A stretch of 64,000 bases of DNA from Streptomyces roseirectus (GTDB taxonomy: Bacteria; Actinomycetota; Actinomycetes; Streptomycetales; Streptomycetaceae): NCBI RefSeq assembly GCF_014489635.1, contig NZ_CP060828.1, positions 4,440,001 to 4,504,000 of the forward strand, read 5' to 3'. Each line of letters starts with the position of its first letter. The stretch's first letter is position 1. The notes under the pieces are model-generated. The model was not told where the DNA came from and searched no databases. It saw only the letters and a program-made list of their open reading frames with translations. Positions 1,322-63,177 of the stretch are shown piece by piece. The translations under genes were made by a program, and so were the position numbers.

Positions 1322-2671
1322 TCACCCCCGTACGGCGACCTCGCCCTCGTCCTCCTCCTCGTCCCGTCCACCCCGTACCCCTCCTGCCGTACGTCCCGTA
1401 GTACCCGTACGTCCCGTAGCCCCCGTACGCCCCGTAGTCCCCGTGATACCCGTAGTACCCCCTGGGCCCCCTTCCGGCAGGCGTAGTACGGCCTCCGCGC
1501 CGCCCTCCGGGTGGTTGCGGAAGGTCAGGCGGGCGCCGAGGAGGCGGGTCTGCCCCGCGGCGATGCTGAGGCCGAGGCCCGTCCCGGCGGACGCGCACCC
1601 GGTGCGGAAACGTTGCGGCCCCGAGGTGGTGAGGACGGCGAGGGCGTCGAGCGGGAAGCCGGGCCCGTGGTCGCGGACGCGGACGACGGGGCCGTCGCCG
1701 CAGCGGTCGACGTCGACGGTGACCGGGGCCGCGCCGTGGCGCAGCGCGTTGGTGACGAGGTTGGTGAGGACCCGTTCCACCCGGCGCGGGTCGGTCTCCA
1801 CGAGCGTGTCCGCGACGATCCGCACCGCGACCCCTTCGAGCCCGGCGACCGCACGCCGCGCCATCGCGCTGACCTGCCGGAACTCGGTCTCGACGACCGC
1901 GCAGTCGGCGTCGAGGCGGGCGATCTCCAGGACGTCCTCGACGAGCCCGTGCAGCTTGCGCACCCCGCCCGCGACGAGGTCGCCGGCGGGTCCCGGCGGC
2001 AGCAGGCAGACCGCGGTGACCATGGCGGCGACCGGCGTGCGCAGCTCGTGCGCGATGTCGGCGGTGACGCGCCGCTCGGCTTCGAGGCGGGCGGCGAGCG
2101 CGTCGGCCATCGCGTTCATGGACCCGGCGAGCCGGGCGATCTCGTCGCGGCCGTGGGGGCGGACGCGGGCGTCGAGGTCGCCGTGGGCGATACGTTCCGC
2201 CGTCCGGGCGGCGGCCGTGGCGCGCCGGCCCATGCGTACGCCGAGGGCGAGGCCGAGCAGCGCGACGGTGCCGGTCGCGGCGGCGCCGGTGGTGGTGAGC
2301 GTCCGGTCCAGTTCGCCGAGCGCGTGCGCCTCGCGGTCGTAGGGGCGGGACAGCGCGAGGACGGTGCGGTCCGAGACGCGGGTCGCCGCCCACAGCACGG
2401 GGTGCGTACCGCTCTGGAGGTAGGTCGCACGTACCCCCCTGCCCATGAGGCGGGTCAGCGGCGCGGGCAGGTCGGGCGGGTCGAGGCGGGCGGCGGACTC
2501 GCGTCCGGCGGCGTGGTCGTAGGCGGCGGCGACCAGTTGGCGGTCGAGGTCGGCGCGGGCGGTGGCGAGCTGGTCGGCGGCGGTGATGCGGTGGACCAGC
2601 ACTCCGACGGCTCCGGCGACCCAGAGGGCCGCGACGGCGACGGCCAGCGCCACCTTCGTACCGAGGTTCAT
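1322..2671 (-). CDS. Sensor histidine kinase, CseC-like, with Gly-X-Thr repeat tail
   Basis: 449 aa. One N-terminal membrane segment (about residues 5-25), an extracytoplasmic sensor region, a second membrane segment (about 127-147), a HAMP linker, the H-box HELRTP, an N-box (NLVTNALRHG), and the G boxes DHGPGF and TGLGLSIA. Partner is the response regulator directly upstream; together they resemble CseC/CseB, the cell-envelope stress pair that controls sigE in S. coelicolor. The C-terminus is odd: after the ATPase domain the gene runs into a 9-bp tandem array (1387-1458) read as Gly-X-Thr triplets, then an acidic Glu/Asp-rich end. The tail is probably a late extension and dispensable for catalysis. 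RNA start: ATG with upstream GGGG. Confidence 0.85.
   Translation of the reverse strand: MNLGTKVALAVAVAALWVAGAVGVLVHRITAADQLATARADLDRQLVAAAYDHAAGRESAARLDPPDLPAPLTRLMGRGVRATYLQSGTHPVLWAATRVSDRTVLALSRPYDREAHALGELDRTLTTTGAAATGTVALLGLALGVRMGRRATAAARTAERIAHGDLDARVRPHGRDEIARLAGSMNAMADALAARLEAERRVTADIAHELRTPVAAMVTAVCLLPPGPAGDLVAGGVRKLHGLVEDVLEIARLDADCAVVETEFRQVSAMARRAVAGLEGVAVRIVADTLVETDPRRVERVLTNLVTNALRHGAAPVTVDVDRCGDGPVVRVRDHGPGFPLDALAVLTTSGPQRFRTGCASAGTGLGLSIAAGQTRLLGARLTFRNHPEGGAEAVLRLPEGGPGGTTGITGTTGRTGATGRTGTTGRTAGGVRGGRDEEEDEGEVAVRG
1387..1458. repeat. 9-bp tandem array, 8 units, inside kinase 3' end
   Basis: Eight contiguous 9-bp units read on the plus strand as CCGTACGTC, CCGTAGTAC, CCGTACGTC, CCGTAGCCC, CCGTACGCC, CCGTAGTCC, CCGTGATAC, CCGTAGTAC. 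On the coding (minus) strand each unit is GGN-NNN-ACG or close, giving Gly-X-Thr. The same unit recurs at about twenty other places in the window. Confidence 0.9.
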
Positions 2672-2675
2672 GGGT

Positions 2676-2735
2676 ATCCCCTAGGGGCGTTCCTCAGGGC
2701 ACCCCTGGGGGCGCGGCGTGTAAGGGGCACCCCTA
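2676..2735. repeat. Three CCCCTAGGGG-like palindromic boxes between kinase and regulator
   Basis: The 61-bp gap between regulator and kinase holds TCCCCTAGGGGCG, CACCCCTGGGGGCG and CACCCCTAGGGGCG, two of them centred on the palindrome CCCCTAGGGG. The last overlaps the regulator's stop. They could be a hairpin-forming intercistronic element or another expansion of the GGGG-rich minisatellite family. Confidence 0.55.
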
Positions 2736-3395
2736 GGGGCGCAGCTTGTAGCCGAAGCCGCGGACCGTCTCGATGCGGTCGCGGCCGATCTTGGCGCGCA
2801 GCCGCCGGATGTGGACGTCGACGACGCGGGTGTCACCGCTCCAGGCGTAGTCCCAGACCCTCTCCAGGAGGAGGTCGCGGGTGAGGACCGTGCCGGGGGA
2901 GGCGGTGAACTCCTGGAGGAGGCGGAGTTCGGTGGTGGTGAGCGCGAGGGGCCGGCCGGCGCGGTGCGCGGTCAGGGTGACGGGGCAGAAGTCCAGGTCG
3001 CCGAAGCTCAGGCGGGCTGCGCGGGGGGCCGTGGGGGCGGCGCGGCGCAGGAGGCAGCGGACGCGGGCGGCGAGGACCAGGCCGTCGAAGGGCTTCGTGA
3101 CGTAGTCGTCGGCCCCGGCCTCCAGGCCCATCACGACGTCGACGGGGTCGTTGCGGGCGGATATCAGCAGCACCGGTACGCGGGACTCGGCGCGGATGCG
3201 GCCGGCGAGGCTGACCCCGTTGAGGCCGGGGAGCATGATGTCCAGGACCGCGACGTCGGGTCTGCGCTCGCGGAAGAGGTCGAGGCCGGTCGTGCCGTCG
3301 GCGGCGGTCCGTACGGCGTAGCCGCTCGACTCCAGGGCGAGGCGGGTGGCCTCCCGGATCATCTCGTCGTCCTCTACCAGCAGGACCTCGTGCAT
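2733..3395 (-). CDS. OmpR-family response regulator, CseB-like
   Basis: 220 aa. A receiver domain with the acidic pair in LVEDDE, phospho-acceptor Asp in VLDIMLPG and the conserved Lys in YVTKPF, then a winged-helix DNA-binding domain ending in GFGYKLRP. The C-terminal segment TRVVDVHIRRLRAKIG closely resembles CseB, the response regulator for cell-envelope stress in streptomycetes. An AGGAGA site precedes ATG 3395. It sits between a lipoprotein gene and the kinase, the same order as cseA-cseB-cseC, but no ECF sigma factor gene lies upstream. I read it as a paralogue of CseB rather than the sigE-linked one. Confidence 0.85.
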   Translation of the reverse strand: MHEVLLVEDDEMIREATRLALESSGYAVRTAADGTTGLDLFRERRPDVAVLDIMLPGLNGVSLAGRIRAESRVPVLLISARNDPVDVVMGLEAGADDYVTKPFDGLVLAARVRCLLRRAAPTAPRAARLSFGDLDFCPVTLTAHRAGRPLALTTTELRLLQEFTASPGTVLTRDLLLERVWDYAWSGDTRVVDVHIRRLRAKIGRDRIETVRGFGYKLRP

Positions 3396-3411
3396 CGGTG
3401 TTCTCCTGGGG

Positions 3412-3444
3412 TGGGGGTCTGCTGAGGGGTGGGGGTCTAGGGGT
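3412..3444. repeat. GGGGTGGGGGTCT direct repeat
   Basis: Two copies of GGGGTGGGGGTCT in the gap between the lipoprotein and regulator genes, followed by AGGGGTATGAC, which resembles the GGTATGACGGG variant of the 9-bp repeat family. Confidence 0.6.
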
Positions 3445-3465
3445 ATGACAGGGGCGCGGCGGCCC

Positions 3466-3915
3466 TCATGCCTTCGGGACCCTGAGTCGTACGGGTCCTA
3501 CGTCCAGGGCCCAGCCGGGGGCGGGCGGGTGGTCGGGGGTGAGGACGGCGTGGCTGTAGTACGCGGCGTACTCGCGTTTGACGAGGCCGGTGAGGACGAG
3601 GCCGGCCGGGAAGGACGGGGAGTCGCCGTGGGGGCAGCCGGAGACGCAGGCGAAGTCGACGACGAGGCCGGTCGCGACGGCACGGGGCGTACCCCAGCCG
3701 TGCCACTTCAGGCCGTACAGGGTGGTGACGTCGGTGAGGTCCACCACGTCGGGGCTCTGCCGGGGGATCGAGCGCGCGTCGTCGATGTAGACCGGCCCCG
3801 ACCAGGGGATCGCGGACGGCGCCGGGCCCTCGACCCGGGCGCCGCCGGGGAGCCCGCCGCATCCCGTCAGCGCGAGGGCGAGCAGCACGGCCGTCGCGGG
3901 TCCGGCATGTCTCAT
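3466..3915 (-). CDS. Small secreted lipoprotein, CseA-like position
   Basis: 149 aa. A type II signal peptide with hydrophobic core and lipobox LTGC (residues 16-19) predicts a lipid-anchored exported protein. AAGGAG precedes the ATG. The mature part has two Cys in the CVSGC motif, is rich in Gly/Pro, and matches no enzyme that I recognise. It is first in an operon with a CseB-like regulator and a CseC-like kinase. In the known sigE-cseABC operon the CseA lipoprotein damps signalling by CseC, so a similar modulating role at the membrane is a reasonable inference from position only; I do not see clear sequence identity to CseA. Confidence 0.7.
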   Translation of the reverse strand: MRHAGPATAVLLALALTGCGGLPGGARVEGPAPSAIPWSGPVYIDDARSIPRQSPDVVDLTDVTTLYGLKWHGWGTPRAVATGLVVDFACVSGCPHGDSPSFPAGLVLTGLVKREYAAYYSHAVLTPDHPPAPGWALDVGPVRLRVPKA

Positions 3916-4031
3916 GCCGCTCTCCTTTCCGCAGCCTTCGGCCGTGTTCGGCCGTCTTCATGGGGAGGGCACCACTTTGACCCGCTCTCGGTAAACGCCA
4001 AATGTCCGGATATTAAGGATCGAGCAAAGCG

Positions 4032-4045
4032 TGGAAACGCTCCCA
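4032..4045. promoter_or_regulatory. LacI-family-like operator upstream of RNase gene
   Basis: TGGAAACGCTCCCA, reverse complement TGGGAGCGTTTCCA, is close to the palindromes bound by LacI/GalR regulators; the CebR box TGGGAGCGCTCCCA differs at two positions. It lies about 140 bp before the RNase start, in the divergent promoter region shared with the lipoprotein operon. Confidence 0.4.
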
Positions 4046-4186
4046 CGGCCGCGTAACAGCCGGACGACTTTTCCGACCGCCGGCTGTGACACGGCCGCCG
4101 GACCGTTGTCACGCCCCGCTGGTTCCTTGAGCCGCACCGGGGCCGACGGCCTCGGGTGAACTCCGGAACGAGTCGAGGAGCACGAG

Positions 4187-4831
4187 GTGTCGACCTCCCC
4201 TGCCCCGGTGTCCGCGCCCGACGCGGCACACCGTAAGAAGTCCCGGCTGCGCGGCCGCCGGGCCCTGACCGTCGCGGGCGTCCTGCTCGCCCTCGTCGGC
4301 GGCGCGGCCGGCACGGCGATCGCGCAGCCGCCGCCCGGCGCCTGCCGCCAGTGGTGCAACAACCCGCCGGGCGGCACCCCGACGATCACGAACCAGGAGT
4401 GGGACGACGCCGAACAGGCCGCCGACTTCTGGGCGAACCACCAGGTCGATCCCCATTTCACCTGGGGCGTGGGCCGGTTGAACGACGCGAACGGCCACGG
4501 GTGGCCCGGCCAGGCGCAGGGCGGTCGCTGGTTCGACTTCTGGGACAGCGCCGCGCACGCGTGGCGGAACATCTACTACGGCGGCACGTTCAACGACCGC
4601 GGCGGCGACCTCGCGGCGTTCGAGCAGCAGGCCCGCCACGAACCGTCGTCCCGCGCCTTCTCAACCGGCAACGGGCGTACGGCTCCTTACGTCGAGTACG
4701 ACATCGACGAGCACACCTCGACCCGTTCGCAGGACCGCGGTCTGCGGCGCATCATCCGCAATCCGCTGACCGGGAACGTCTTCGCGACCTGGGACCACTA
4801 CCAAACGTTTGCTTGGCTGGGCAAGTACTGA
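4187..4831 (+). CDS. Secreted guanyl-type ribonuclease (RNase N1/T1, barnase-like)
   Basis: 214 aa. GTG 4187 follows GAGGAG (4175-4180). An N-terminal basic stretch and hydrophobic core (about 25-46, ending AIAQPP) make a signal peptide. The C-terminal part carries the active-site arrangement of microbial guanyl-specific RNases: Glu170 in YVEYDI, the Arg pair 187-188 in RGLRRII, and His204 in WDHYQTF. Between signal and catalytic core lies a Trp/Asn/Gly-rich region, so the protein is longer than RNase Sa (about 96 aa). Such RNases cleave single-stranded RNA 3' to guanosine. The next gene encodes a barstar-type inhibitor, which supports the call. Likely roles are scavenging RNA or antagonism; target unknown. 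Confidence 0.75.
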   Translation: MSTSPAPVSAPDAAHRKKSRLRGRRALTVAGVLLALVGGAAGTAIAQPPPGACRQWCNNPPGGTPTITNQEWDDAEQAADFWANHQVDPHFTWGVGRLNDANGHGWPGQAQGGRWFDFWDSAAHAWRNIYYGGTFNDRGGDLAAFEQQARHEPSSRAFSTGNGRTAPYVEYDIDEHTSTRSQDRGLRRIIRNPLTGNVFATWDHYQTFAWLGKY

Positions 4832-4897
4832 CCGGCACTCCGGGGGCGCGGCACCGGCCGCGCCCCCTCCCTTCAACTACCGAGGCAGGTACGTCAC

Positions 4898-5251
4898 TTG
4901 AGCAGCACGCCGATCCTGATCCACCCCCTGTCCGAGGCTCCGGGCTCCGCGCGGGAAGTGAGCGGGACGCGCAGCCGCACCCGCCAGGACCTGTTCACCG
5001 AGTGGTCCGCCGGACTCGCCTTCCCCGCCCATTTCGGCCGCAACTGGGACGCGTTCACCGACTGCCTGCGCGACATCGTGCCGGTCGCGGTCATCGTCCG
5101 GGACGCCGCCGACCTCCTCGCCGACGCCCCGCCGCACGAACTCGCCGTCCTGCTCGACGTGTTGGCCGAGTCCGGTGGCGTCCGTCTCTTTCTCGACGAC
5201 ACCCCGGACCGCCTGGCCTCGCTGAACACACGCCTGTCGACGACGAGTTGA
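4898..5251 (+). CDS. Barstar family ribonuclease inhibitor
   Basis: 117 aa, cytoplasmic, no signal peptide. TTG 4898 was chosen because GAGGCAGG (4882-4889) lies eight bases upstream and no ATG/GTG in frame is better. Residues 46-57 (FGRNWDAFTDCL) match the inhibitory helix and loop of barstar, whose two Asp residues bind the RNase active site; here these would be Asp51 and Asp55. It follows the RNase gene by 66 bp and is probably cotranscribed, giving intracellular immunity against the enzyme before export. Its stop is 10 bp from the stop of the convergent peptidase gene. Confidence 0.85.
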   Translation: MSSTPILIHPLSEAPGSAREVSGTRSRTRQDLFTEWSAGLAFPAHFGRNWDAFTDCLRDIVPVAVIVRDAADLLADAPPHELAVLLDVLAESGGVRLFLDDTPDRLASLNTRLSTTS

Positions 5252-5261
5252 GCCCGACCGG

Positions 5262-6692: not shown

Positions 6693-6799
6693 GGCTCCTC
6701 CTGGGGCGGGGTTCCGTCGATGCTCCTGGAGTCGCCGGGGAGCGGCAAGAGGGCCCGAAGACAGGGGAGTTGGCGGGCGTGCGGTGAAGGGCCTTCGGG

Positions 6800-8461: not shown

Positions 8462-10498
8462 TCACCTCTTGGTGTAAGTCAGCTGCTCGCCGGTGGAGCT
8501 GTTGACCCGCTGGAGGGTGCCGTCGGGCAGGAGGGTCACCTCGGTCGCCGCGCCCGGTGTGCAGGAGGAGAGGGGGCGGCCGGTGGTGACCCGGGACGGG
8601 CCGTAGGTGAGCGGGCCGCTCTCCGTGGCCGGCCGGCGGGTGAGTGTGGCCGTGAACTCGCAGTGGTAGCCGGGGCCTTCGGCGACCAGCGTGAGCGCGG
8701 CGGCGCCCGGATCGCCCTGCGCGATGACGAGTTCGCGGGTGTTGGCGCCGTTCGCGCTGTCGATCCTGGCGGTCCAGCTGCCCAAGTAGGCGGCGGGGAC
8801 GGCGCCTTCGCCCTCCGGCGTCGCCGAATCGGAGGGCTGCGGGGTGGGCGGGGCCGGCTGCGGCGCGTTCTTCGTGACCGTCGGGGAGGCGTCGGGGGTC
8901 TTCGCCTCGGGGGTGCCGTCGCCGTTCAGCAGCGCGTACACGGAGGAGCCGGCCGCGATGGCGACGACCAGGGCCACGACGATGAGGAGGGCGGTGGTGC
9001 GGTTGTTGCGGCGGGGGGCGGGGTCCTCCGGGGGGTACGGGGAGTGGGGGTGGGAGGTGTACGGGGCGTAGGGGGTGGGGTTGTACGGGGAGGGGGACGG
9101 GTGCGGGTGGGTGGGGGGCGGGTTGTAGGGGCCGGGGGTACCCGTAGTACCTGCGGCGGCCATGGGGTGGGGGTGGGGAGTGCCTGGCGCGCCGGGGTAC
9201 GGGGGCCTCGGGGGATACCCGTAGGACGTGGGGGCTACGGGTGAGGGATACCCGTGAGCCACCGCTGTCGGGCCCGGCGCGGGGTCGTGGCCGGCCGACG
9301 CGGGGTCATGGCCGGTCGGCGCTGGTCGTACGGGATACCCGTAGCCCTCCTCCCCCTGCGGCGCGGGCTGCGGGTGCTGCTGGGCGTGGCCGTACGCGGG
9401 GTGGGCCGGTGCGGCGGCGACGGGACCGGCGGCGGACGACGGGGTCCGGACCGGACCGGCGTTCCGGTCGGCGAACGGACCGCCCGGTCCGCCCTCGCCG
9501 CCCCGGGGGCCGGAGTGTTCGGGCACCGCCTCGGCGGCGGCGTCGTCCTCGCCCGGTCCCTCGATGTCGAGCAACCGCACGGCGTGGCGCCCGAGTTGGG
9601 CCACCAGGCCGCTCGGCAGCCAGGGGTCGCGGGACCGGCCGTCGGAGACGGTGTCCTCGGCGCCGATGCCTTCGAGGACGGCGCCCAGGGAGGGCCGGGC
9701 GGCGGGATCCTTGCGCAGGCAGGCGAGGACGAGGTCGGCGATCCCCTCGGGAACGCCCGCGAGGTCGGGGTCGTCCTCGGCGATACGGAACATGAGCGCG
9801 TGCACCCCGCTGTCGGCGTTGCCGAACGGCAGCGACCCGGTGGCGGCGTACGCGAGCACCGAGCCGAGGCAGAACACGTCGCACGCGGGAGTGATCCGGT
9901 CGCCCCTGACCTGCTCGGGCGCCATGAAACCCGGAGACCCGACCATCGCACCCGTAAGGGTCAGCTCAGGGGTGTCGCCCTCCAGCGCGCGGGCGATGCC
10001 GAAGTCGATGACGCGGGGCCCGTCGATGGTGACCATGACGTTGGACGGCTTGAGGTCGCGGTGCACGATGCCGGCCGCGTGGATGTCCTGGAGCGCGTGC
10101 GCGAGCCCGGCGGCGAGGATGCGGACGGACCGCTCGGGCAGCGGGCCGTGGTCCTGGCCGACGACCTGTTGCAGGCTCGGTCCCGCGACGTACCCGGTGG
10201 CGACCCAGGGCATGCCGGCCTCGGTGTCGGCGTCCAGGACGGGCGCGGTCCAGTGGCCGCCGACCCGCCGGGCGGCGGCGACCTCCTGGCGGAACCGCTC
10301 CCGGAACTCCTCGCGGGTGGCGAGCTCGGAGCGGACGAGTTTCACGGCGACGGTGCGGCCCCGGTCCGACCTGGCGAGATAGACGTGGCCCATGCCGCCG
10401 CCACCCAGGCGCGCGACCAGCTGGTACTCCCCGGTCCGCCCCCGGAGCCGGAACCCCGGCGGGATCCCCATCGGGTCACCCTCGCCCAGCTTCTCCAT
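8462..10498 (-). CDS. Membrane Ser/Thr protein kinase with extracellular C-terminal domain
   Basis: 678 aa from ATG 10498 (MEKLG start typical of the family; ATG 10471 is an alternative). PASTA-less PknB-type kinase: glycine loop LGGGGMG (31-37), ATP-binding Lys53 in VAVKL, catalytic HRDLKPSN (146-153), DFG (165-167), MAPEQ (192-196). A long Pro/Gly/Tyr linker follows, in which copies of the 9-bp repeat are translated (GTTGTP, SYGYPP). A single membrane helix (ALLIVVALVVAIAAG) and an exported beta-rich domain of about 130 residues with two Cys end the protein. Probably transmits an envelope signal. The linker is low-complexity and its length is likely strain-variable. Confidence 0.88.
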   Translation of the reverse strand: MEKLGEGDPMGIPPGFRLRGRTGEYQLVARLGGGGMGHVYLARSDRGRTVAVKLVRSELATREEFRERFRQEVAAARRVGGHWTAPVLDADTEAGMPWVATGYVAGPSLQQVVGQDHGPLPERSVRILAAGLAHALQDIHAAGIVHRDLKPSNVMVTIDGPRVIDFGIARALEGDTPELTLTGAMVGSPGFMAPEQVRGDRITPACDVFCLGSVLAYAATGSLPFGNADSGVHALMFRIAEDDPDLAGVPEGIADLVLACLRKDPAARPSLGAVLEGIGAEDTVSDGRSRDPWLPSGLVAQLGRHAVRLLDIEGPGEDDAAAEAVPEHSGPRGGEGGPGGPFADRNAGPVRTPSSAAGPVAAAPAHPAYGHAQQHPQPAPQGEEGYGYPVRPAPTGHDPASAGHDPAPGPTAVAHGYPSPVAPTSYGYPPRPPYPGAPGTPHPHPMAAAGTTGTPGPYNPPPTHPHPSPSPYNPTPYAPYTSHPHSPYPPEDPAPRRNNRTTALLIVVALVVAIAAGSSVYALLNGDGTPEAKTPDASPTVTKNAPQPAPPTPQPSDSATPEGEGAVPAAYLGSWTARIDSANGANTRELVIAQGDPGAAALTLVAEGPGYHCEFTATLTRRPATESGPLTYGPSRVTTGRPLSSCTPGAATEVTLLPDGTLQRVNSSTGEQLTYTKR
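9080..9350. repeat. 9-bp repeat copies within kinase linker coding region
   Basis: CCGTAGTAC at 9142-9150, and degenerate GATACCCGTAGG, CTACGGGTGAG and GATACCCGTAGC copies to about 9348. On the coding strand they add Gly/Thr/Tyr/Pro residues to the kinase's juxtamembrane linker, as in the first histidine kinase tail. Confidence 0.6.
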
Positions 10499-10628: not shown

Positions 10629-10678
10629 CTGGACCCGTAGTACCCCCGAGGGCGGGTCGGGGATACGCGTAGTACTTC
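10629..10678. repeat. 9-bp repeat copies in the gap between LuxR and kinase genes
   Basis: CCCGTAGTACCCC and ATACGCGTAGTAC lie in the 203-bp gap downstream of the luxR gene and upstream of the kinase. The rest of the gap holds the presumed kinase promoter; no gene seen. Confidence 0.65.
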
Positions 10679-13607: not shown

Positions 13608-13775
13608 GACCCGTAGTACCCGGAGACGGCGCTCGGAACACCCGGAGGCGATGCTCGGGAGGTACCCGGAGACGGCGCTCGGGGATACCCGTAATACCCC
13701 CGGCCGCGCCGCCCTCCGGCATACCCGTAGTACCCGGAAGCCACCCTCGGGGACACCCGTAGTACCCCCGCCGTA
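13608..13775. repeat. Repeat-rich 313-bp gap: 20-bp direct repeat plus 9-bp units
   Basis: TACCCGGAGACGGCGCTCGG occurs twice exactly (13617-13636 and 13663-13682), interleaved with CCGTAGTAC-type units at 13611-13619, about 13686-13697, 13723-13735 and 13756-13766. The array begins 35 bp after the amidohydrolase stop. The remaining 110 bp before the aminotransferase should hold its promoter. No gene is seen. Confidence 0.8.
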
Positions 13776-18653: not shown

Positions 18654-18689
18654 GTAGGACCCGTAATACCCGTAGTACCCGTAATACCC
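18654..18689. repeat. 9-bp tandem array, 4 units
   Basis: GTAGGACCC, GTAATACCC, GTAGTACCC, GTAATACCC, then GTACGG, in the 125-bp gap between the glycosyltransferase and the next gene, ending 25 bp before the latter's GAGGAG ribosome site. It therefore lies where a promoter or 5' leader would be. Confidence 0.9.
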
Positions 18690-18727
18690 GTACGGCCGTG
18701 GCGACCTTTCGAACGAGGAGCATTTCT

Positions 18728-39251: not shown

Positions 39252-39270
39252 CCGTCTCAAGTACTACGGG
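39252..39270. repeat. 9-bp repeat copy between two-component genes
   Basis: CGTCTCAAGTACTACGGG resembles CTCTCRGGTNNTACGGG followed by one unit. It is in the 119-bp gap between the second regulator's stop and the first kinase's start. Confidence 0.6.
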
Positions 39271-44109: not shown

Positions 44110-44166
44110 CGTAGCTCTCAGGTATTACGGGTATGACGGGGGTCCCGTTTACGGGTATGACGGGGT
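44110..44166. repeat. CTCTCRGGT element with two TACGGGTATGACGGG copies
   Basis: CGTAGCTCTCAGGTATTACGG (44110-44130) runs into GTATGACGGGGG, and a second TTTACGGGTATGACGGGG follows at 44149-44166. It lies in the 274-bp gap between kynurenine formamidase-like gene end and the hydrolase start; the rest of the gap shows no gene. Confidence 0.75.
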
Positions 44167-45417: not shown

Positions 45418-45437
45418 GTACTACGGGTACGACAGGG
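45418..45437. repeat. 9-bp repeat pair directly after kynU stop
   Basis: GTACTACGG and GTACGACAG occupy 45418-45435; the kynU stop codon begins at 45440 on the minus strand, two bases further. The repeat thus separates the stop from the terminator hairpin. Confidence 0.8.
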
Positions 45438-47613: not shown

Positions 47614-47652
47614 GTGATACCCGGAGCCCCTACCCGAGTACTACGGGTACCG
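47614..47652. repeat. 9-bp repeat copies upstream of kynA
   Basis: GTGATACCCGGAGCCCCTAC and CGAGTACTACGGGTACC lie in the 200-bp gap between the DUF3151 gene's stop and kynA's start. Confidence 0.6.
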
Positions 47653-50427: not shown

Positions 50428-50453
50428 CCGTCATACCCGTAGTACCTACGGGC
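50428..50453. repeat. 9-bp repeat copies directly after fba stop
   Basis: CCGTCATAC and CCGTAGTAC (50428-50445), then CTACGGGCG, ending two to three bases from the fba stop codon (50456-50458). Same stop-repeat-hairpin order as at kynU. Confidence 0.8.
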
Positions 50454-50455: not shown

Positions 50456-51487
50456 CTACTTGATCCGCGTCCCCGCCGACCGCAGGTTCTGCGTGGCCTC
50501 GACGACCCGCGCCGCCATGCCCGCCTCGGCCAGCTTGCCCCAGGTACGGGGGTCGTAGGTCTTCTTGGAGCCGACCTCGCCGTCGACCTTCAGGACGCCG
50601 TCGTAGTTCTGGAACATGTGGGCCGCGACCGGACGCGTGAAGGCGTACTGCGTGTCCGTGTCGAGGTTCATCTTGATGACGCCGTTCTCCAGCGCGGTCG
50701 CGATCTCCTCCTCGGAGGAGCCGGAGCCGCCGTGGAAGACGAAGTCGAACGGCTGCGAACCGGCCGGCCTGCCGAACTTGGCGGCGACGCCCTCGTTCAG
50801 CTCCTTCAGCAGGTCGGGGCGGAGCACGACGTTGCCCGGCTTGTAGACGCCGTGCACGTTGCCGAACGACGCGGCGAGCAGGTAGCGGCCCTTCTCGCCG
50901 AGGCCCAGCGCCTCGACCGTGCGGATCGCGTCGTCGACCGTCGTGTAGAGGGAGTCGTTGATCTCGTGCGAGACGCCGTCCTCCTCGCCGCCGGTCGGGG
51001 TGATCTCCACCTCAAGGATGATCTTCGCGGCGGCGGCGCGGGCGAGCAGTTCCTGGGCGATGGCCAGGTTGTCGGCCAGCGTCTCCGCCGAGCCGTCCCA
51101 CATGTGCGACTGGAACAGCGGGTTGCGGCCGGCCTTCACGCGCTCCTCGGAGACCGCGAGCAGCGGACGGACGTACCCGTCGAGCTTGTCCTTCGGGCAG
51201 TGGTCGGTGTGCAGCGCGACCGTGACCGGGTACTTCTCGGCGACGACGTGCGCGAACTCGGCGAGCGCGACCGCGCCGGTCACCATGTCCTTGCTGTACT
51301 GGCCGCCCAGGAACTCCGCGCCGCCCGTGGAGATCTGGATGATGCCGTCGCTCTCCGCCTCGGCGAAGCCGCGCAGCGCCGCGTGCAGGGTCTGGGTCGA
51401 GGTGACGTTGATGGCCGGGTAGGCGAACTTGCCTGCCTTCGCCCGGTCGAGCATCTCGTTGTAGACCTCGGGGGTTGCGATGGGCAT
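50456..51487 (-). CDS. fba: Class II fructose-bisphosphate aldolase
   Basis: 343 aa, AAGGAG seven bases before ATG 51487. Zn-dependent cleavage of fructose 1,6-bisphosphate in glycolysis and its reversal in gluconeogenesis. Motifs include PAINVTST, the Zn ligands in ALHTDHCP (two His), LEVEITPTGGEEDG, ASFGNVHGVYKPG and FVFHGGSGSSEEEI. Chromosomal neighbour of pyrE and DUF3151 in streptomycetes. Own promoter in the gap after pyrE. Confidence 0.98.
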   Translation of the reverse strand: MPIATPEVYNEMLDRAKAGKFAYPAINVTSTQTLHAALRGFAEAESDGIIQISTGGAEFLGGQYSKDMVTGAVALAEFAHVVAEKYPVTVALHTDHCPKDKLDGYVRPLLAVSEERVKAGRNPLFQSHMWDGSAETLADNLAIAQELLARAAAAKIILEVEITPTGGEEDGVSHEINDSLYTTVDDAIRTVEALGLGEKGRYLLAASFGNVHGVYKPGNVVLRPDLLKELNEGVAAKFGRPAGSQPFDFVFHGGSGSSEEEIATALENGVIKMNLDTDTQYAFTRPVAAHMFQNYDGVLKVDGEVGSKKTYDPRTWGKLAEAGMAARVVEATQNLRSAGTRIK

Positions 51488-51548
51488 CTGTCCGCTCCTT
51501 GGGTGTGCGGGTTGGCGATCTTCGTACTACGGCCCTGACCTAGACCTT

Positions 51549-52261: not shown

Positions 52262-52292
52262 CGTGGCTCTCAGGTCGTACGGGTACTACAGG
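52262..52292. repeat. Composite repeat containing the galM-like stop
   Basis: CGTGGCTCTCAGGTCGTACGG followed by GTACTACAG. On the minus strand the last unit contains the TAG stop (52286-52288) of the aldose epimerase gene. This is the clearest case of the composite segment (CTCTCRGGT + 9-bp unit) at a gene end. Confidence 0.8.
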
Positions 52293-53093: not shown

Positions 53094-53111
53094 GGACTAC
53101 GGGTCTCACGG
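53094..53111. repeat. 9-bp repeat copies at the galM-like start
   Basis: GGACTACGG and GTCTCACGG lie 20 bases upstream of the chosen GTG; this gene thus has family copies at both its 5' and 3' ends. Confidence 0.6.
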
Positions 53112-53220: not shown

Positions 53221-54084
53221 TCAGCGGCGCCTGCGCAAGGCTCGGCCGACCACCACCGCCGACACCACCGCGAGCGCCGCCGCCGGGGCGGCCCAGCGCA
53301 GGGTGTTCGCCGGGGTGAGCGCCTGCGGTGCGGGGACCGGGGCGTAGCGGCCTCGCGGCGGGGCGTGGTCGACCTCTTCCGCGCTTCTGCCGATCATCGT
53401 CCGGCGGGCATGGGCGGCCTCCGCCGGGGGTTCCGAGGGGGTCGCGGGGTCCAGCGGGTCCAGGGCGTCCAGAGGTTCCAGGGACGACGGGGGGATGTCG
53501 GTCTCGAAAATCGTGGGCGGGAGGGGGTGTTCCGACGCCCGCTCGGGGGCGGGTTCCGGGGCCGGGGTCTGTTTCGGCTCCGGCCGGGGTTCCTGGCCCG
53601 GGGGCTGTTCCGATGCGCCGGGGTGCTGCTCCGGATCGCCCGGGTGCCGCTCCTGCGACCCCGTACCCGTAATACCCAGGTTCCCCCCGAAGCGGTTCAG
53701 GAGGCGGGCGACCGCCGCCGCGACCGTCTCCTGCGGGAGTTCCGTGACCCTGCCGTCGGCCCGCGCGGTGCCGGTGAACCTCAGGTTGGTACCCGTAGGG
53801 GTCTCGGTGAGAGCGAGGGTGAGCGCGAGGTGGACCTTGCCGGTGCCCCTCGCCTCTGCCGCGTCGGCGCGGACCGTGTACGTGCCGCCCGGGGCTGGCG
53901 CGACCTGGGCCGTGCCCCGGTAGGTGATCGTGTGGCTGCCGACCCGGACTTTCAGCCGGCCGGCGATGGGGGGCGTCCCCGCGTCCTGCTGGAGGCCGGG
54001 GACCGCGCGGGCCACCTGCGCGGGGTCGGCGAGGGCCGCTCGCAGCCGCTCCGCCGGAACCGGAACGAACACCTCTTGCTCCAT
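53221..54084 (-). CDS. SRPBCC (CoxG-like) protein with Pro-rich tail and C-terminal anchor
   Basis: 287 aa from ATG 54084. Residues 1-150 form an SRPBCC lipid/ligand-binding fold (VFVPVPAERLRAALADPAQVARAVPG ... GRVTELPQETVAAAVARLLNRFGG). The CO-dehydrogenase subunit G family has this start. A Pro/Glu/His-rich linker of about 110 residues follows, containing a translated repeat copy (LGITGTGS), then one C-terminal membrane helix (LRWAAPAAALAVVSAVVVG) and basic end. Likely a tail-anchored ligand-binding protein. Confidence 0.8.
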   Translation of the reverse strand: MEQEVFVPVPAERLRAALADPAQVARAVPGLQQDAGTPPIAGRLKVRVGSHTITYRGTAQVAPAPGGTYTVRADAAEARGTGKVHLALTLALTETPTGTNLRFTGTARADGRVTELPQETVAAAVARLLNRFGGNLGITGTGSQERHPGDPEQHPGASEQPPGQEPRPEPKQTPAPEPAPERASEHPLPPTIFETDIPPSSLEPLDALDPLDPATPSEPPAEAAHARRTMIGRSAEEVDHAPPRGRYAPVPAPQALTPANTLRWAAPAAALAVVSAVVVGRALRRRR

Positions 54085-56090: not shown

Positions 56091-56202
56091 GAAGGGGTAC
56101 CGCGCGGGAGGCACCTCGCCAGGGGTAGTCCTCCAGGGGCACCTCGCCAGGGGTACTCCTTCAGGGGTGCCTCTTCAGGGGCACTCCTCCAGAGGTACGC
56201 CC
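56091..56202. repeat. 14-bp minisatellite, 8 exact-length units
   Basis: Units of exactly 14 bp: GAAGGGGTACCGCG, CGGGAGGCACCTCG, CCAGGGGTAGTCCT, CCAGGGGCACCTCG, CCAGGGGTACTCCT, TCAGGGGTGCCTCT, TCAGGGGCACTCCT, CCAGAGGTACGCCC. The last ends two bases before the DUF2617 stop codon (56204-56206). Same length and a similar core as the array at 246-450. The first 150 bp of this gap (55926-56090) show no gene. Confidence 0.9.
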
Positions 56203-56203
56203 C

Positions 56204-57010: not shown

Positions 57011-57046
57011 GGACGCCCGCCGCGTGTCGCCGCGCGGCGGGCGTCC
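57011..57046 (-). terminator. Terminator of the Gly/Cys/His-rich gene
   Basis: GGACGCCCGCCGCG (57011-57024) and CGCGGCGGGCGTCC (57033-57046) form a perfect 14-bp stem with an eight-base loop, about 95 bases after the minus-strand stop at 57143. Confidence 0.85.
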
Positions 57047-57142
57047 CTCTGCGGTAGCCCCTCGGGCCCCGCCGGGGTTCCCTTAGGGGAGACCCCGTAC
57101 CCCTGAGGAGCTTGGCTCCGGGCGAAGCTCGGCTGCCCCGTG

Positions 57143-57463: not shown

Positions 57464-57622
57464 GACGATCACCCTCCTTCCGCTTCTCACAAGTCCCCCG
57501 AAGCGGCCCCCCGTGGGCGCCTCGCGCACCGTGCGTGCGGTGCGTGACCTGGGGATGCCCGGCCGTCTCACCTGCCAAAGCACACTTGAGGAAGTCAAGA
57601 GCTTGGGCGCAGGATGACGGGC

Positions 57623-58810: not shown

Positions 58811-58821
58811 GCCGGGCCCCC

Positions 58822-59640
58822 ATGGTCGCGCGCGGGGGCGGTCGGCAGGCAGCCGCTGACGGTGCTCGGGCACTCGTGGGACTCCCGGTGGTACCTGGGG
58901 ATCGCCGCGCACGGCTACGGGCGCGTCCTGCGCTTCGGCCCCGGCGTCGTCCACAACGGTCTGACGTGCTTCCCGCTGTACCCGGCGCTCCGTCCGCGCC
59001 GTGACCGCCGTGACGCCCCTCAGCGGCGGCACTGCGGGCTTCCTGGTGTCCTGGGCGGCCACGGTCGCCGCCTGCGGGATCCACGCCGTGGTGTGCCGTC
59101 TGCGCGGTCCCGCCGTGGCCGCCGCCGCGGGGTGTGGGAGACGGTGCGCGGGCGGGGCTGGGGGCACGCGCGCGGGGGCGGGGCCGGATGCCGGTGCGGG
59201 GCGGCGGGAAGTGGGGGGTGCGGCCCCGGGGTGCCGGCCAGGGCGTCGGCGCGGGGGCGCGTCGGGAAGGCGTCGGGGTCGGGCGTGCGCGCGCGAGGGC
59301 GCGTCGGGGGTGTGCCTGTGCCGGGCGTGGGGCGGGCCGAGCGAGGACGCGTTTCCCACAGGCTGTGGACGGAGATCGTCGTCGCACCGCTGGGGTGGGT
59401 CGCGTACGTCTTGTGGGTGGGATGCGGAAGGGGGACCCGCCAAGGGGCTACTTCGAGGTGCAGCGCCTATGGGGGTCGCGGTTCGACTTCGGAGAGAGGC
59501 CGCTGCGGTTCGCGCGGCACCTGGTGCGGACGGCGAGAGCCCGGCCGGGGCTCGCGGCCGTGGTGGTCGCGGTCCTGGTCGGGCTCTCGTTCGCGTGTGG
59601 GCCGGGAGGTCTACGGGTCGTACGGGGTGCACGTCCCGTA
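58822..59640 (+). pseudogene. Decayed GT-C mannosyltransferase-like membrane protein
   Basis: Pieces of one protein are spread over all three plus frames: WDSRWYLGIAAHGYGR and CFPLYPAL (frame of 58862), then TPLSGGTAGFLVSWAATVAA (frame of 59001), LWTEIVVAPLGWVAYVLWVG (frame of 58862 again) and YFEVQRLWGSRFDFGERPLR (frame of 59134). In order they follow integral membrane mannosyltransferases (PIG-V-like). The start is lost, and about 200 bp in the middle (59140-59350) are G-rich low complexity with no homologous sequence. Several frameshifts; no intact frame. Confidence 0.8.
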
Positions 59641-59694
59641 GCTCTCAGGTCCTGCCTGTAGTCCTCGGGTCGTGCCCGTGGCTCTCGGGTCCTA
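59635..59694. repeat. 20-bp tandem repeat, 3 units, ending in the ybjN stop
   Basis: Units CCCGTAGCTCTCAGGTCCTG, CCTGTAGTCCTCGGGTCGTG and CCCGTGGCTCTCGGGTCCTA are exactly 20 bp each (59635-59654, 59655-59674, 59675-59694). The last two bases of unit three are within the stop codon of the minus-strand YbjN gene. They are the CTCTCRGGT segment of the composite element, repeated. Confidence 0.9.
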
Positions 59695-60219
59695 CTGGTC
59701 GTCCTGCGGCTTCTCCGCCTCGTCGACCTCTTCCTCCAGGCCGAGCTGTTCCACGAGCCACTTGTCGAACTCGATGGCGGCGCGGACCCAGCTGACCGTG
59801 GAGGAGACGAAGAACTCGATGTTCACGCCCGCGCCGATCAGCATCTGGGTCTCGCCGATGAGGCGGACCGTGCCGTCCTCGTGGGTGTGCGTGTAGACCT
59901 TGGGCCACAGCGTGCGGCGGTTCCAGTCGTCGATCGCCTCCAGGAGCTGGAGCTTGTCGTCGATCTGGTGGGGCCGGTCGAAGAAGGTCCGCACCGAGTA
60001 GACCTGCTGCTCGCCCTCCCCGCGGAACATGAAGTACGTGCGGAACTGCTCCCACGGCGCCGCGAGGTCGCCCTCGTCGTCGACGACGTACTTCAGCTCC
60101 ATCTGGTCGAGGAGCTGCTTCACGAGGTCCTGGTCCGGGACGACGGGGCCCGCCGGTCCTTGGGGCTGCGGCTCGGGCTGGCCCCCGAAGTTCGGAATCG
60201 AGGACGGGTCGATGCTCAC
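59692..60219 (-). CDS. YbjN domain protein
   Basis: 175 aa from GTG 60219; AAGGGA seven bases upstream. A short Pro/Gln-rich N-terminus, then the YbjN fold typical of actinobacteria: KQLLDQMELKYVVDDEGDLAAPW, RTYFMFRG, FDRPHQIDDKLQLLEAIDDWNRRTLWPKVY, LIGETQMLIGAGVNIEFF, and an acidic tail. Structurally like type III secretion chaperones; role in streptomycetes unknown. Same strand as clpB and 268 bp downstream. Confidence 0.9.
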   Translation of the reverse strand: MSIDPSSIPNFGGQPEPQPQGPAGPVVPDQDLVKQLLDQMELKYVVDDEGDLAAPWEQFRTYFMFRGEGEQQVYSVRTFFDRPHQIDDKLQLLEAIDDWNRRTLWPKVYTHTHEDGTVRLIGETQMLIGAGVNIEFFVSSTVSWVRAAIEFDKWLVEQLGLEEEVDEAEKPQDDQ

Positions 60220-60291
60220 CGTGTTTTTCCCTTCGTACGGATGCCGCCATCCTCCCCCATGCGGGGCGGGCACTGGCAACCCCCACCGGAC

Positions 60292-60314
60292 CCTGTCAGC
60301 CCTCGGCTGACAGG
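60292..60314 (-). terminator. Hairpin between clpB and ybjN
   Basis: CCTGTCAGCC-CTC-GGCTGACAGG, a perfect 10-bp stem, about 175 bases after clpB and 75 before the ybjN start. Terminator or operator. Confidence 0.55.
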
Positions 60315-60365
60315 AACCGACCGGGGCCTGAACATCGGGGGCGGGCAGAGCCCGGCGGGAGGGGC

Positions 60366-60412
60366 GGACGGCGCAGGCATTGCGGACGGCGCAGGTATTA
60401 CGGGTACTACGG
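60366..60412. repeat. Direct repeat and 9-bp pair in clpB-ybjN gap
   Basis: GGACGGCGCAGGYATTRCGG occurs twice in tandem (about 60366-60402), followed by GTATTACGG (60395-60403) and GTACTACGG (60404-60412). Confidence 0.75.
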
Positions 60413-60487
60413 CCCGCCCCTCCGCCGAACGCCCCGCCCGGCACCCCATCCCTGACTCTCCGCCCCCGACAGCCCCTACCCCTACAA

Positions 60488-63085
60488 CTACAACCGCTTC
60501 CCCGAAGCAGGCCCCACGATCAGCCCGTCCCCGAACGCGTCCACCCGCACTGTGTCCCCGTCCTTGACCTCCCCGGACAGGATCTCCTTGGCGAGCCGGT
60601 CGCCGATGGCGGTCTGGACGAGACGGCGCAGCGGCCGCGCACCGTACGCGGGGTCGTTGCCCTCGGTCGCGAGCCAGGCGAGGGCTTCCTCGGAGACCTC
60701 CAGGGTGAGCCGGCGGTCGGCGAGGCGCCGGGCGAGCCGGTCGATCTGGAGCCGCGCGATGTGCGCCAGCTCGTCCTGCGAGAGGGCGGAGAAGACGACG
60801 AGGTCGTCCAGCCGGTTCAGGAACTCCGGCTTGAAGGACGTCCGCACGACCTCCAGGACCTGCTCGCGCTTCTCGTGCTCGCTGGTGAGCGGGTCGACGA
60901 GGAACTGACTGCCCAGGTTGGACGTCAGCACCAGAATCGTGTTCCGGAAGTCGACGGTGCGGCCCTGACCATCCGTCAGGCGCCCGTCGTCCAGCACCTG
61001 GAGGAGGACGTCGAAGACCTCGGGGTGGGCCTTCTCGACCTCGTCGAGGAGGACGACGGTGTACGGGCGCCGGCGCACGGCCTCGGTGAGCTGGCCACCC
61101 TCCTCGTAGCCGACGTAGCCGGGAGGCGCGCCGACCAGCCGGGCCACGCTGTGCTTCTCGCCGTACTCGGACATGTCGATGCGGACCATCGCCCGCTCGT
61201 CGTCGAAGAGGAAGTCCGCGAGGGCCTTGGCGAGTTCGGTCTTGCCGACGCCGGTCGGACCGAGGAAGAGGAAGGACCCGGTGGGACGGTCGGGGTCGGC
61301 GATGCCCGCGCGCGAGCGCCGCACCGCGTCGGAGACCGCCTGGACCGCCTCGGTCTGGCCGATCAGACGGCGCCCCAACTCGGCTTCCATGCGCAGGAGT
61401 TTCTGGGTCTCGCCCTCCAGCAGGCGCCCGGCGGGGATGCCGGTCCAGGAGCCGACGACGTCGGCGATGTCGTCGGGGCCGACCTCCTCCTTGACCATGG
61501 TGTCGCGGGCGGCCTCCTCCTCGGCGGCCGACGCCTCCTCCAAGTCCCGTTCCAGCGTGGGGATCTCGCCGTACAGCAGCTTGGAGGCGGTGTCGAAGTC
61601 GCCGTCGCGCTGGGCGCGTTCGGCCTGGCCCCGCAACTCGTCGAGTTTTTCCTTGAGTTCACCGACCCGGTTGAGGGACTGCTTCTCCTTCTCCCAGCGG
61701 GCGTTGAGGCCGCGCAGCTCCTCCTCCTTGTCGGCGAGGTCGCGGCGCAGCCGGTCCAGGCGCTCACGGGAGGCGGCGTCGGTCTCCTTGCTGAGGGCCA
61801 GCTCCTCCATCCTCAACCGGTCGACGGCGCGCTGGAGTTCGTCGATCTCGACGGGCGAGGAGTCGATCTCCATGCGCAGCCGGGAGGCCGCCTCGTCGAC
61901 GAGGTCGATGGCCTTGTCGGGCAGGAAGCGGGAGGTGATGTAGCGGTCGGAGAGGGTCGCGGCGGCGACGAGCGCGCTGTCGGCGATCTGGACCTTGTGG
62001 TGGGCCTCGTAACGGCCCTTCAGGCCACGGAGGATGGCGATCGTGTCCTCCACCGACGGTTCGGCGACGAGGACTTGCTGGAAGCGGCGCTCCAACGCCG
62101 GGTCCTTCTCGATGCGTTCGCGGTACTCGTCGAGCGTGGTGGCGCCGACCATGCGCAGTTCGCCGCGCGCGAGCATCGGCTTGAGCATGTTGCCGGCGTC
62201 CATGGCGGAGTCGCCGCCCGCGCCGGCGCCGACGACGGTGTGCAACTCGTCGATGAACGTGATGACTTGACCGTCCGACTCCTTGATCTCGGCCAGTACG
62301 GTCTTCAGCCGCTCCTCGAACTCGCCGCGGTACTTGGCGCCCGCGACCATCGCACCGAGGTCGAGGGAGACGAGCCGCTTGTCCTTCAGGGACTCGGGGA
62401 CGTCACCCTTCACGATGCGCTGCGCGAGCCCTTCGACGACGGCCGTCTTGCCGACACCGGGCTCGCCGATGAGGACCGGGTTGTTCTTGGTGCGGCGCGA
62501 CAGCACCTGGACGACGCGGCGGATCTCCTGGTCGCGGCCGATGACCGGGTCGAGCTTGCCCTCGCGGGCGGCGGCGGTGAAGTCGGTGCCGAACTTCTCC
62601 AGCGCCTTGTACGAGCCCTCGGGGTCGGCGGAGGTGACGCGCCGGCCACCGCGCGCCTTGCGGAACGCCTCCAGCAGCTTCTTCGCGGTGGCGCCCTGCC
62701 GGGTGAGGACGTCGCCGGCCTGGCCGCCCTTGTCGGCGATGCCGATCAGCAGGTGCTCGGTGGACAGGTACTCGTCCCCGAGGTCGGCGGCGCGGCTCTG
62801 GGCGTCGGCGATCACGGCGAGCAGGTCGCGGTTGGGCTGCGGCGGGGCCACTGTGGACCCCGTAACCCTCGGGAGGGAGGCGAGGACCTGCTCCGCGCCC
62901 TGGCGCACGGCGGCCTGGTCCGCGGCGACGGCGGCCAGCAGGTCGGTGATGTTCTCGTTGTCCTGCCCGGCGAGCAGAGCCAGGAGCAGGTGTGCGGGGG
63001 TGAGATCGGGGTGCCCCTCGGACACGGCACGGCTGCTCGCCGCGTTGATCGCGTCCCGGCTCCGGTTGGTCAGCTCTGCGTCCAC
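60488..63085 (-). CDS. clpB: ATP-dependent disaggregase ClpB
   Basis: 865 aa. GTG 63085 ([16 protein letters not shown] start) follows AAGGAGGAG; the frame continues upstream into repeat DNA but lacks a start there. Clp N-domain repeats ([25 protein letters not shown]), first Walker A GEPGVGKT (207-214) and Walker B-type SLDLGAMV..., the middle coiled coil (about 400-530, rich in Glu/Arg/Leu), second Walker [11 protein letters not shown], and the sensor GARPLRR near the end. Dissolves protein aggregates with DnaK. An HspR box lies upstream. Confidence 0.97.
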
Positions 63086-63113
63086 GGTCGGGGTCTCCTC
63101 CTTGCGTCCTGGA

Positions 63114-63177
63114 GTACTACGGGTACTACGGGTACTACGGGCCTTAGCAGGTACTACGGGTACTACGGGCATGACGG
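63114..63177. repeat. 9-bp array (5 perfect units + 1 variant) in clpB leader
   Basis: GTACTACGG three times (63114-63140), a 10-bp spacer, GTACTACGG twice (63151-63168), then GCATGACGG. It lies between the clpB ribosome site (about 63090-63100) and the HspR box (63215-63235), so it is probably transcribed as 5' leader. It is the cleanest array in the window. Confidence 0.92.

Follow-up and report, generated by a model that had tools for sequence, protein, structure and literature searches.

What does a 9-bp word, GTACTACGG, do at so many dispersed places in a 64,000-nucleotide stretch of the Streptomyces roseirectus chromosome (positions 4,440,001-4,504,000 of a genome of one contig, 9,947,447 bp; hereafter, the window)? 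The initial annotation had described a dispersed repeat family and offered a minisatellite, a protein-binding array or a post-transcriptional 3'/5' signal as its explanation. Based on the data reported here, we tentatively prefer a population of putative recognition sites that is amplified by slippage and would be read by a sequence-specific protein. The family itself is borne out by the counts. Exact copies number 19 in the window versus a shuffle mean of 0.19 (100 shuffles, largest count 2) and, with one mismatch allowed, 52 versus 9.5 expected (largest shuffle, 17). Genome-wide, there are 438 copies of GTACTACGG, 219 on each strand, versus 71 of the reversed word, and related forms are similarly in excess (GTATTACGG, 80 versus 1 reversed; GGGTAYKACGGGTA, 82 versus 0; tandem 18-mers, 36 versus 0). 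Thus, the comparison with shuffled sequence gave counts far above expectation, and the outcome that was to speak against a family did not occur.

The word and the species that carry it

Across an 864-kb stretch, whose gaps add up to 151 kb, the intergenic 9-mer most over-represented relative to a third-order Markov model is TACTACGGG (52 versus 1.25). The variable letters of the word are confined to two positions, GTAY[T>G>C]AC, and the GTACTAC core is an odd, imperfect palindrome with non-complementary G-rich flanks. Neighboring copies on the same strand are mainly spaced by 9 bp (19 pairs) or 18 bp (9 pairs) in S. roseirectus, and by 9 bp (12 pairs) and 11 bp (8 pairs) in Streptomyces acidiscabies. 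Within arrays, TACGGG is constant while the three intervening letters vary: among 36 intergenic pairs in the word-rich blocks described below, the spacer is TAC in 12, TCG in 6, TAT in 6 and one of nine or ten others in 12. The word is a core, TACGGG, with the full form GGTAYTACGGG and a tandem period of 9. The phase given in the initial annotation, GNNNNACGG, is better written GGTAY[T/G/C]ACGG; the core with the widest enrichment in the S. roseirectus genome is TACGGG. Other G-rich tandem repeats at positions 56093-56198 and 9030-9138 of the window (e.g. CCAGGGGTACTCCT, 14/28 bp, and GGGGGTGTACGGGG) have GTAC in common with the family.

Among the genomes searched, only those of S. roseirectus, S. 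acidiscabies and S. niveiscabiei have high copy numbers of the word; the last two share 84-85% identity with S. roseirectus over a 1.6-kb gene from the window. For instance, GGGTAYTACGGGTAYTACGG, with 28 copies in S. roseirectus, has matches in four of 391 other Streptomyces genomes (3, 2, 1 and 1 copies). GGGTAYTACGGG occurs 49 times versus once reversed in S. acidiscabies and 46 versus 1 in S. niveiscabiei, and the corresponding counts are 11 versus 3 in NRRL F-525, 10 versus 1 in S. prunicolor, 3 versus 4 in S. xylophagus and 1-9 versus 0-3 in ten more genomes, five of which were picked as carriers. A scan of a species-genome collection with a 21-base tandem, which may omit records very close to the S. 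roseirectus genome, gave 25 stretches, 13 in Streptomyces and 12 in other bacteria: four in S. niveiscabiei, three in S. acidiscabies, two in S. eurythermus and one each in S. xylophagus, S. prunicolor, WELS2 and NRRL F-525. Arrays of the 9-bp unit are sporadic at loci of other Streptomyces, and a large expansion of the word is seen only in the S. roseirectus/S. acidiscabies/S. niveiscabiei clade. Two side observations concern the carriers. Read by eye, one S. eurythermus and two S. acidiscabies loci appear to encode Gly-Thr-Thr or Val-Val-Pro repeats with the same DNA unit; and the blocks of S. acidiscabies contig 1 have a gap dialect of their own, with ACGGGTACTAC at 11-bp spacing, GGTAGTACC, CAGGTACTAC and TACCCGGGTA.

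Chromosome blocks and synonymous codons

We examined 1.66 Mb of the S. roseirectus chromosome (3.80-5.464 Mb) and 1.2 Mb of S. acidiscabies, from a contig that begins near the counterpart of ~4.35 Mb. A DnaA-box search did not pinpoint oriC, and the parS cluster serves as its stand-in. Intergenic copies are concentrated at 3.95-4.10, 4.40-4.72 and 5.35-5.44 Mb (hereafter, the blocks), and block edges near 4.40, 4.72 and 5.36 Mb lie inside the syntenic core. The blocks hold 98 intergenic GTAYTACGG in 89 kb of intergenic DNA (1.1 per kb) versus 5 in 114 kb (0.04 per kb; 5 kb masked) in the parS/oriC zone at 4.735-5.345 Mb, the latter count leaving out the non-syntenic 4.815-4.90 Mb. A third group of regions (3.80-3.95, 4.10-4.35 and 4.815-4.90 Mb) has none in 100 kb. 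All 24 parS words (GTTTCACGTGAAAC) of the 1.66 Mb lie in the oriC desert, at 4755064-5012368, with 22 of them in 4.932-5.012 Mb. S. acidiscabies shows a matching desert: intergenic GTAYTACGG number 2, 3, 2, 5, 3 and 2 per 50 kb between 100 and 400 kb, followed by one in 700 kb and then 4 and 6 per 50 kb, and all 27 parS words of the 1.2 Mb sit in this desert. Likewise, two of the 94 places with GGGTAYKACGGG in the S. acidiscabies genome are within 0.3716-1.1160 Mb of contig 1, and both read GGGTACGACGGG. In the 1.66 Mb and 1.2 Mb examined, the distribution is domain-limited and kept in the sister species. Over the whole S. roseirectus genome, one of 80 GTATTACGG copies is at 4.735-5.345 Mb and three are beyond 8.4 Mb, while 66 fall in six stretches totalling ~1 Mb that were drawn after the fact. 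The 82 GGGTAYKACGGGTA places form 61 loci, with 22 spacings below 20 kb versus 11.4 for random placement (maximum 21 in 5000 simulations).

The contrast is also found between orthologous gaps. Of the 423 S. roseirectus gaps (among 962) that were aligned to S. acidiscabies, 175 belong to the blocks, 230 to the oriC zone and 18 to neither. Gaps bearing the word number 30 of 175 in blocks versus 3 of 230 in the oriC zone in S. roseirectus (Fisher p = 6e-9), and 14 of 175 versus 1 of 230 in S. acidiscabies. Block gaps with the word, block gaps without it and oriC gaps have mean identities of 0.821, 0.815 and 0.814, gapped fractions of 0.168, 0.162 and 0.182, and mean S. roseirectus lengths of 228, 210 and 220, respectively. 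Because oriC gaps are equally diverged, constraint is ruled out as the cause of the desert. Acquired DNA does not account for it either: 4.82-4.90 Mb is thin and non-syntenic, while the remainder of the oriC zone is syntenic. A rival word of the oriC region was also considered and rejected, as the apparent enrichment of GGAGACGCG and AGCAGGCC comes mainly from single local arrays. The first, at 4752090-4752985 just within the oriC-side desert edge, is a ~26-bp tandem array with 48 intergenic hits of GGAGACGCG, which has only 10 scattered intergenic hits in the 1.2 Mb of S. acidiscabies; the second, at 5173423-5173789, is a ~15-bp tandem array with 24 hits of AGCAGGCC. Ten genes at the left desert edge (4.71-4.76 Mb) encode ordinary Pfam domains (oxidoreductase, transporters, glycosidase, kinase, ion channel, MoeA and acyltransferases). 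A single 16S gene was found, at 4125647-4127172; further copies are possible.

Genes carry the same signal. The blocks contain 86 coding GTAYTACGG, whereas 60 rounds of synonymous-codon shuffling inside each gene lead one to expect 8.3; observed versus predicted numbers are 8 versus 2.1 in the oriC zone and 6 versus 3.4 elsewhere. In S. acidiscabies, the figures are 27 versus 4.4 in blocks, 1 versus 2.5 in the oriC zone and 3 versus 0.1 in the first 100 kb. The most block-enriched 6-mer of S. roseirectus coding DNA is TACGGG (549 versus 222, ratio 2.0); most of this enrichment lies outside the common Tyr-Gly phase. The preference for TACGGG is sharp: in a comparison with its 18 one-letter neighbors, it has a ratio of 2.17 and 14 of the neighbors have ratios of 0.87-1.33. 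The density of out-of-frame coding TACGGG tracks intergenic density (r = 0.79, 42 S. roseirectus 40-kb bins). In syntenic genes, there are 7.6 such words per 10 kb in blocks versus 1.9 near oriC, a rate ratio of 3.8 (coefficient 1.34, standard error 0.18) with gene identity and GC content at third codon positions allowed for, and the excess holds in all four identity quartiles. This adjusted ratio and the codon shuffle exclude gene identity, third-position GC content and codon usage as sole causes. Isolated out-of-frame coding TACGGG (four phases) number 127 in 345 kb of the blocks versus 57 in 386 kb.

In conserved coding context (ungapped, at least 85% protein identity), GTAYTACGG occurs 21 times in 174 kb of the blocks versus twice in 245 kb near oriC. 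Ten of these 21 copies are shared with S. acidiscabies, nine are in S. roseirectus only and two in S. acidiscabies only. At six of the nine, the six residues shown are unchanged, e.g. GTA CTA CGG facing GTC CTC CGG in S. acidiscabies. Judged from these alignments, some coding words probably arise through synonymous change in conserved proteins, and we read them as putative gains rather than as losses in the sister species. Codon usage shifts in parallel: GTA makes up 4.2% of Val codons in blocks versus 2.0% near oriC, and CTA 0.8% versus 0.3% of Leu codons, while GTT (1.4 and 1.8%) and CTT (1.8 and 1.7%) do not rise. The S. acidiscabies GTA shares are 7.2% in blocks and 4.6% in the oriC zone. 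Coding tandem arrays translate as TGTT, VVP, STR, VRD or GYG depending on the gene, in sense or antisense, which argues for pressure on the DNA and not on the peptide. Separately, GAATTC is 2.9 times denser in block coding DNA (3.95-4.10, 4.40-4.735 and 5.35-5.45 Mb) than near oriC (80 versus 22, both strands), and TAGGGG/CCCCTA is likewise raised.

Placement, turnover and the copies in the window

The gene map comes from a purpose-made caller with a simple codon model, and individual gene ends may be off. The statement that most copies are in gaps holds for the window (16 of 19 exact copies and 21 of 26 GTAYTACGG copies), and it needs the addition that block genes are also strongly enriched. 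Over 864 kb, 72 GTAYTACGG are in gaps (0.477 per kb) and 56 in genes (0.079 per kb). By gap type, the density per kb is 0.78 for convergent, 0.50 for same-direction and 0.32 for divergent gaps. Same-direction gaps have 17 sense versus 26 antisense copies (p = 0.22). These strand and position data rule out a promoter or terminator signal and give the word the look of neither these nor an RNA signal. An RNA-level signal, i.e. a 3' end, attenuator or terminator loop, would find support in S. roseirectus, where complementary arms (score at least 8) flank 28 of 117 clusters, more often than control places (11%) or cross-paired flanks (16%). However, S. acidiscabies has no clear excess (9 of 76 clusters, 12%, versus 9% and 14%), leaving hairpin loops as a weak signal of one species; the word is found in coding DNA in all frames and in antisense; and the window has no Rfam match at gathering scores. 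The RNA-level reading, including the post-transcriptional signal of the initial annotation, is mostly refuted and we give it hardly any credence. Co-direction of the clusters with replication is weak (85 of 136 oriented clusters, 62.5%, p = 0.004).

The copies in the window illustrate how the family is built and how it differs between species (coordinates are those of the window). Among 18 places named in the initial annotation, 14 have an exact or GTATTACGG copy, 52283 and 53094 have one-mismatch forms, and 21310 and 21944 have degenerate relatives only.

1387..1458, minus strand: degenerate TACGGG-NNN array with two exact copies, reading TGRTGATGRTGTTGRT, in the C-terminal tail of a histidine kinase gene (1322-2671, minus)
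9142..9150, minus strand: single copy in a Ser/Thr kinase gene (8462-10498, minus), past the kinase domain
9219-9227: GTCCTACGG relative near the 9142 copy in the Ser/Thr kinase gene
10635..10675, minus strand: exact copy and GTACTACGC (10667-10675) in a divergent gap
13611..13765, minus strand: four copies (13611, 13689 = GTATTACGG, 13725 and 13757), partly inside a ~32-bp composite repeat
18654..18707, minus strand: 54-bp (6 x 9) segment with GTATTACGG/GTACTACGG/GTATTACGG, absent from the orthologous S. acidiscabies gap
21310 and 21944: degenerate relatives only, GGGTATGACTAC and TGATACCCGTAGACC, respectively
39261..39269, plus strand: single copy, orthologous S. acidiscabies site identical
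44122..44163, plus strand: GTATTACGG, GTATGACGG and another GTATGACGG
45418..45426, plus strand: single copy in a gap, without conservation in S. acidiscabies
47638..47646, plus strand: single copy; GGTACTAC and GGTACGAC occur elsewhere in the S. acidiscabies gap
50428..50445, minus strand: GTATGACGG and GTACTACGG (the latter at 50437), a pair of units lying 10 bp beyond the 3' end of a class-II aldolase gene (50456-51487, minus)
51524..51532, plus strand: single copy, identical in S. acidiscabies
52283..52291, plus strand: GTACTACAG variant (one-mismatch form)
53094..53102, plus strand: GGACTACGG variant (one-mismatch form) in a gap
53667..53675, minus strand: GTATTACGG within a gene (53221-54084, minus)
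60395..60412, plus strand: GTATTACGG-GTACTACGG tandem, matched at the equivalent S. acidiscabies place by GTATGACGG-GTACTACGC with diverged flanks
63114..63168, plus strand: five exact copies (3 + 2) between a ClpB-type gene (60488-63085, minus) and a PNPOx-like gene; ~two units at the S. acidiscabies counterpart

Identical arrays at orthologous positions are not the rule: the word is present in either species in 35 block gaps and in both in 9. The two species also differ in number, with 98 versus 27 GTAYTACGG over 89 and 77 kb within the blocks. At the 3' end of one gene, judged from its ending to be a putative response regulator, S. niveiscabiei has ~7 units, S. roseirectus ~3 and S. acidiscabies ~1, and the S. 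niveiscabiei array differs in length by 36 bp from that of S. roseirectus and by 60 bp from that of S. acidiscabies. Among the array-length differences, 54 and 36 bp are multiples of nine, and 13, 47, 60 and 213 bp are not. Of 108 aligned, non-conserved coding words that are out of frame, 75 carry one or two substitutions and 18 an indel; random coding 6-mers change in much the same manner. In conserved coding context, 10 of 21 copies of the word are shared between the species; for two control words, the figures are 6 of 15 and 42 of 90. Isolated intergenic TACGGG are conserved in 20 of 41 cases (0.49) versus 0.44, i.e. about equally.

Explanations and known systems

In the model that we tentatively prefer, although we rate it as less likely than not, the word is a clade-specific, high-turnover population of putative DNA recognition sites. 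Its reader would be a sequence-specific protein whose action is limited to defined central-chromosome blocks away from the parS/oriC region. In tolerant DNA such as gaps, kinase tails and linkers, sites would multiply to arrays through slippage, while in conserved genes they would arise via synonymous substitution. The density of sites, not their position, would count, so that single sites may turn over while the density of a block is kept, presumably by selection rather than drive. The protein-binding array of the initial annotation is possible and is the reading that we prefer. A more specific version is a chromosome-domain code, in which the 9-bp word is dense in discrete blocks, kept out of the parS/oriC region, pulls synonymous codons in conserved genes and is read by a protein to organise or move the blocks; this version we regard as doubtful.

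Molecular drive, in which the word would be a signal favored in DNA exchange, with alleles spreading without benefit to the host and blocks as regions of frequent exchange, is an explanation that we consider somewhat improbable. The clade dialect, the occurrence in genes and gaps on both strands with weak polarity, species differences by single substitutions in conserved codons and the weak conservation of single sites in S. roseirectus are all consistent with it. A reader or exchange drive would alike act at the level of DNA, leaving single sites free to turn over. Against drive, no link to competence or a translocase was found, a 76-base array query (63105-63180) had no match among 72,556 plasmid and 50,697 phage records (BLAST, E <= 1, low-complexity filter on), and the mostly syntenic core around parS is nearly word-free over ~600 kb, which is unexpected for a general uptake signal. 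The block pattern and the oriC desert are what lead us to prefer a reader to drive. The minisatellite of the initial annotation, a chance-seeded 9-bp unit spread by slippage and template switching into tolerant DNA without a reader, fits the period of 9, the arrays that differ in length between species, the S. roseirectus copies that are conserved less than their gaps, the high density in convergent and low density in divergent gaps, and the sporadic arrays in other Streptomyces. Slippage accounts for the growth of arrays; by itself, it is hard to reconcile with words built from synonymous codons in conserved proteins, with the correlated densities of genes and gaps, or with the oriC desert, whose gaps are as long and as diverged as block gaps, and several of the array-length differences are not multiples of nine. 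On its own, a minisatellite is therefore insufficient, and this reading is already strained and, in our view, unlikely. Finally, blocks may have been replaced by homologous segments of a word-rich lineage before the split from S. acidiscabies, the remainder of the chromosome never having carried the word. Such replacement would yield sharp edges, and the edges inside the syntenic core and the doubled GTA share in blocks agree with it. Still, it leaves the existence of the word in the donor unexplained, and the species differ inside blocks in copy number and spacing, indicating that change continued after the split; we judge this ancient mosaic distinctly unlikely.

Several observations weigh against the preferred reading, i.e. 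recognition sites read by a protein. Of the S. roseirectus intergenic copies in the blocks (n = 53, alignable gaps), 13% are fully conserved in S. acidiscabies, versus 36% of other 9-mers of the same gaps. Taken the other way round, 44% of 16 S. acidiscabies copies are fully conserved versus a background of 18%; because the signs are opposite, fast turnover is clear for S. roseirectus only. Isolated coding TACGGG in blocks are conserved at 0.40-0.50 versus 0.56-0.58 for permuted words. Because the block limits were drawn from the S. roseirectus intergenic counts, the block/oriC contrast of this species is partly there by construction, and the S. acidiscabies and coding contrasts are better checks. 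Additional thin zones lie at 5.53-5.94, 6.14-6.42 and 6.73-7.37 Mb and elsewhere in S. acidiscabies, and the oriC desert may therefore not be special. Furthermore, in the codon shuffle, TACGGG alone is somewhat in excess near oriC as well (222 versus 190; 349 versus 261 in S. acidiscabies) and two control words fall below prediction in most regions; the leading coding 6-mer of S. acidiscabies is GTACTA (101 versus 38, ratio 4.2) with TACGGG outside the top twelve, and the GTA share varies from 2.3 to 7.4% inside the S. acidiscabies desert rather than being low throughout. The sharpness of the word is incomplete, with ratios of 1.94 for TAGGGG and 1.59 for TACGGT, raised values for the rare TAAGGG and TATGGG, and, for GTACTAC (3.26), several neighbors at 1.7-2.1 and GTACTAG at 3.26. 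The word has no fixed position relative to genes in the 864 kb, and no reader protein was found, no candidate DNA-binding protein having been sought.

Overall, the word hints at a system that reads or spreads it. If a protein reads it, the word would amount to a sequence-coded domain signal on a linear Streptomyces chromosome; if drive spreads it, the word would represent a signal for DNA exchange in a group for which we know of none. The word is well defined, rich regions adjoin empty ones and the sister species can serve as a replicate, which makes the question directly testable. DNA uptake sequences in transformation, Chi in recombination and TraB repeats in conjugation are examples of exchange signals. 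As to domains, rrn operons and highly expressed genes are described as boundaries (PMC9723626, PMC8410849); in the portions of these papers available to us, the term "motif" is absent from the former and "sequence motif" from the latter. A literature search did not find GTACTACGG together with Streptomyces, and longer forms of the word occurred only in three papers that are unrelated by title and abstract opening.

The word shares features with several known systems. Similarly to the STRR of heterocystous cyanobacteria, it forms clade-restricted, short-unit tandem repeats dispersed in gaps; unlike them, it has a 9-bp unit, chromosome blocks and a strong coding presence via synonymous codons. 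Tandem unit number differs between the species compared, as in minisatellites with a variable number of tandem repeats, whereas isolated out-of-frame coding words are in excess, which goes beyond tandem amplification alone. REP/BIME elements (PMC2817692) likewise have hundreds of dispersed copies, but the word lacks a palindromic unit and has coding copies; a RAYT transposase was not sought. The clt repeats recognised by TraB on Streptomyces conjugative plasmids are also short direct-repeat arrays, while the word is chromosomal and the array queried has no match in the plasmid collection. KOPS and Chi are short over-represented words as well, but the polarity of this word is weak and far from that of KOPS. 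The dialects of Neisseriaceae DNA uptake sequences (see PMC3630211) resemble it as ~10-bp, clade-specific words over-represented in genes and gaps on both strands; unlike these, the word forms period-9 arrays and, instead of spreading over the whole core, is confined to blocks in the stretch examined, with background levels at 4.735-4.815 and 4.90-5.345 Mb; no link to competence was found. Finally, matS/MatP, NBS/Noc and SBS/SlmA likewise combine a short word with a chromosome-domain distribution; what sets the word apart from these is a desert on the parS/oriC side and hundreds of copies in arrays.

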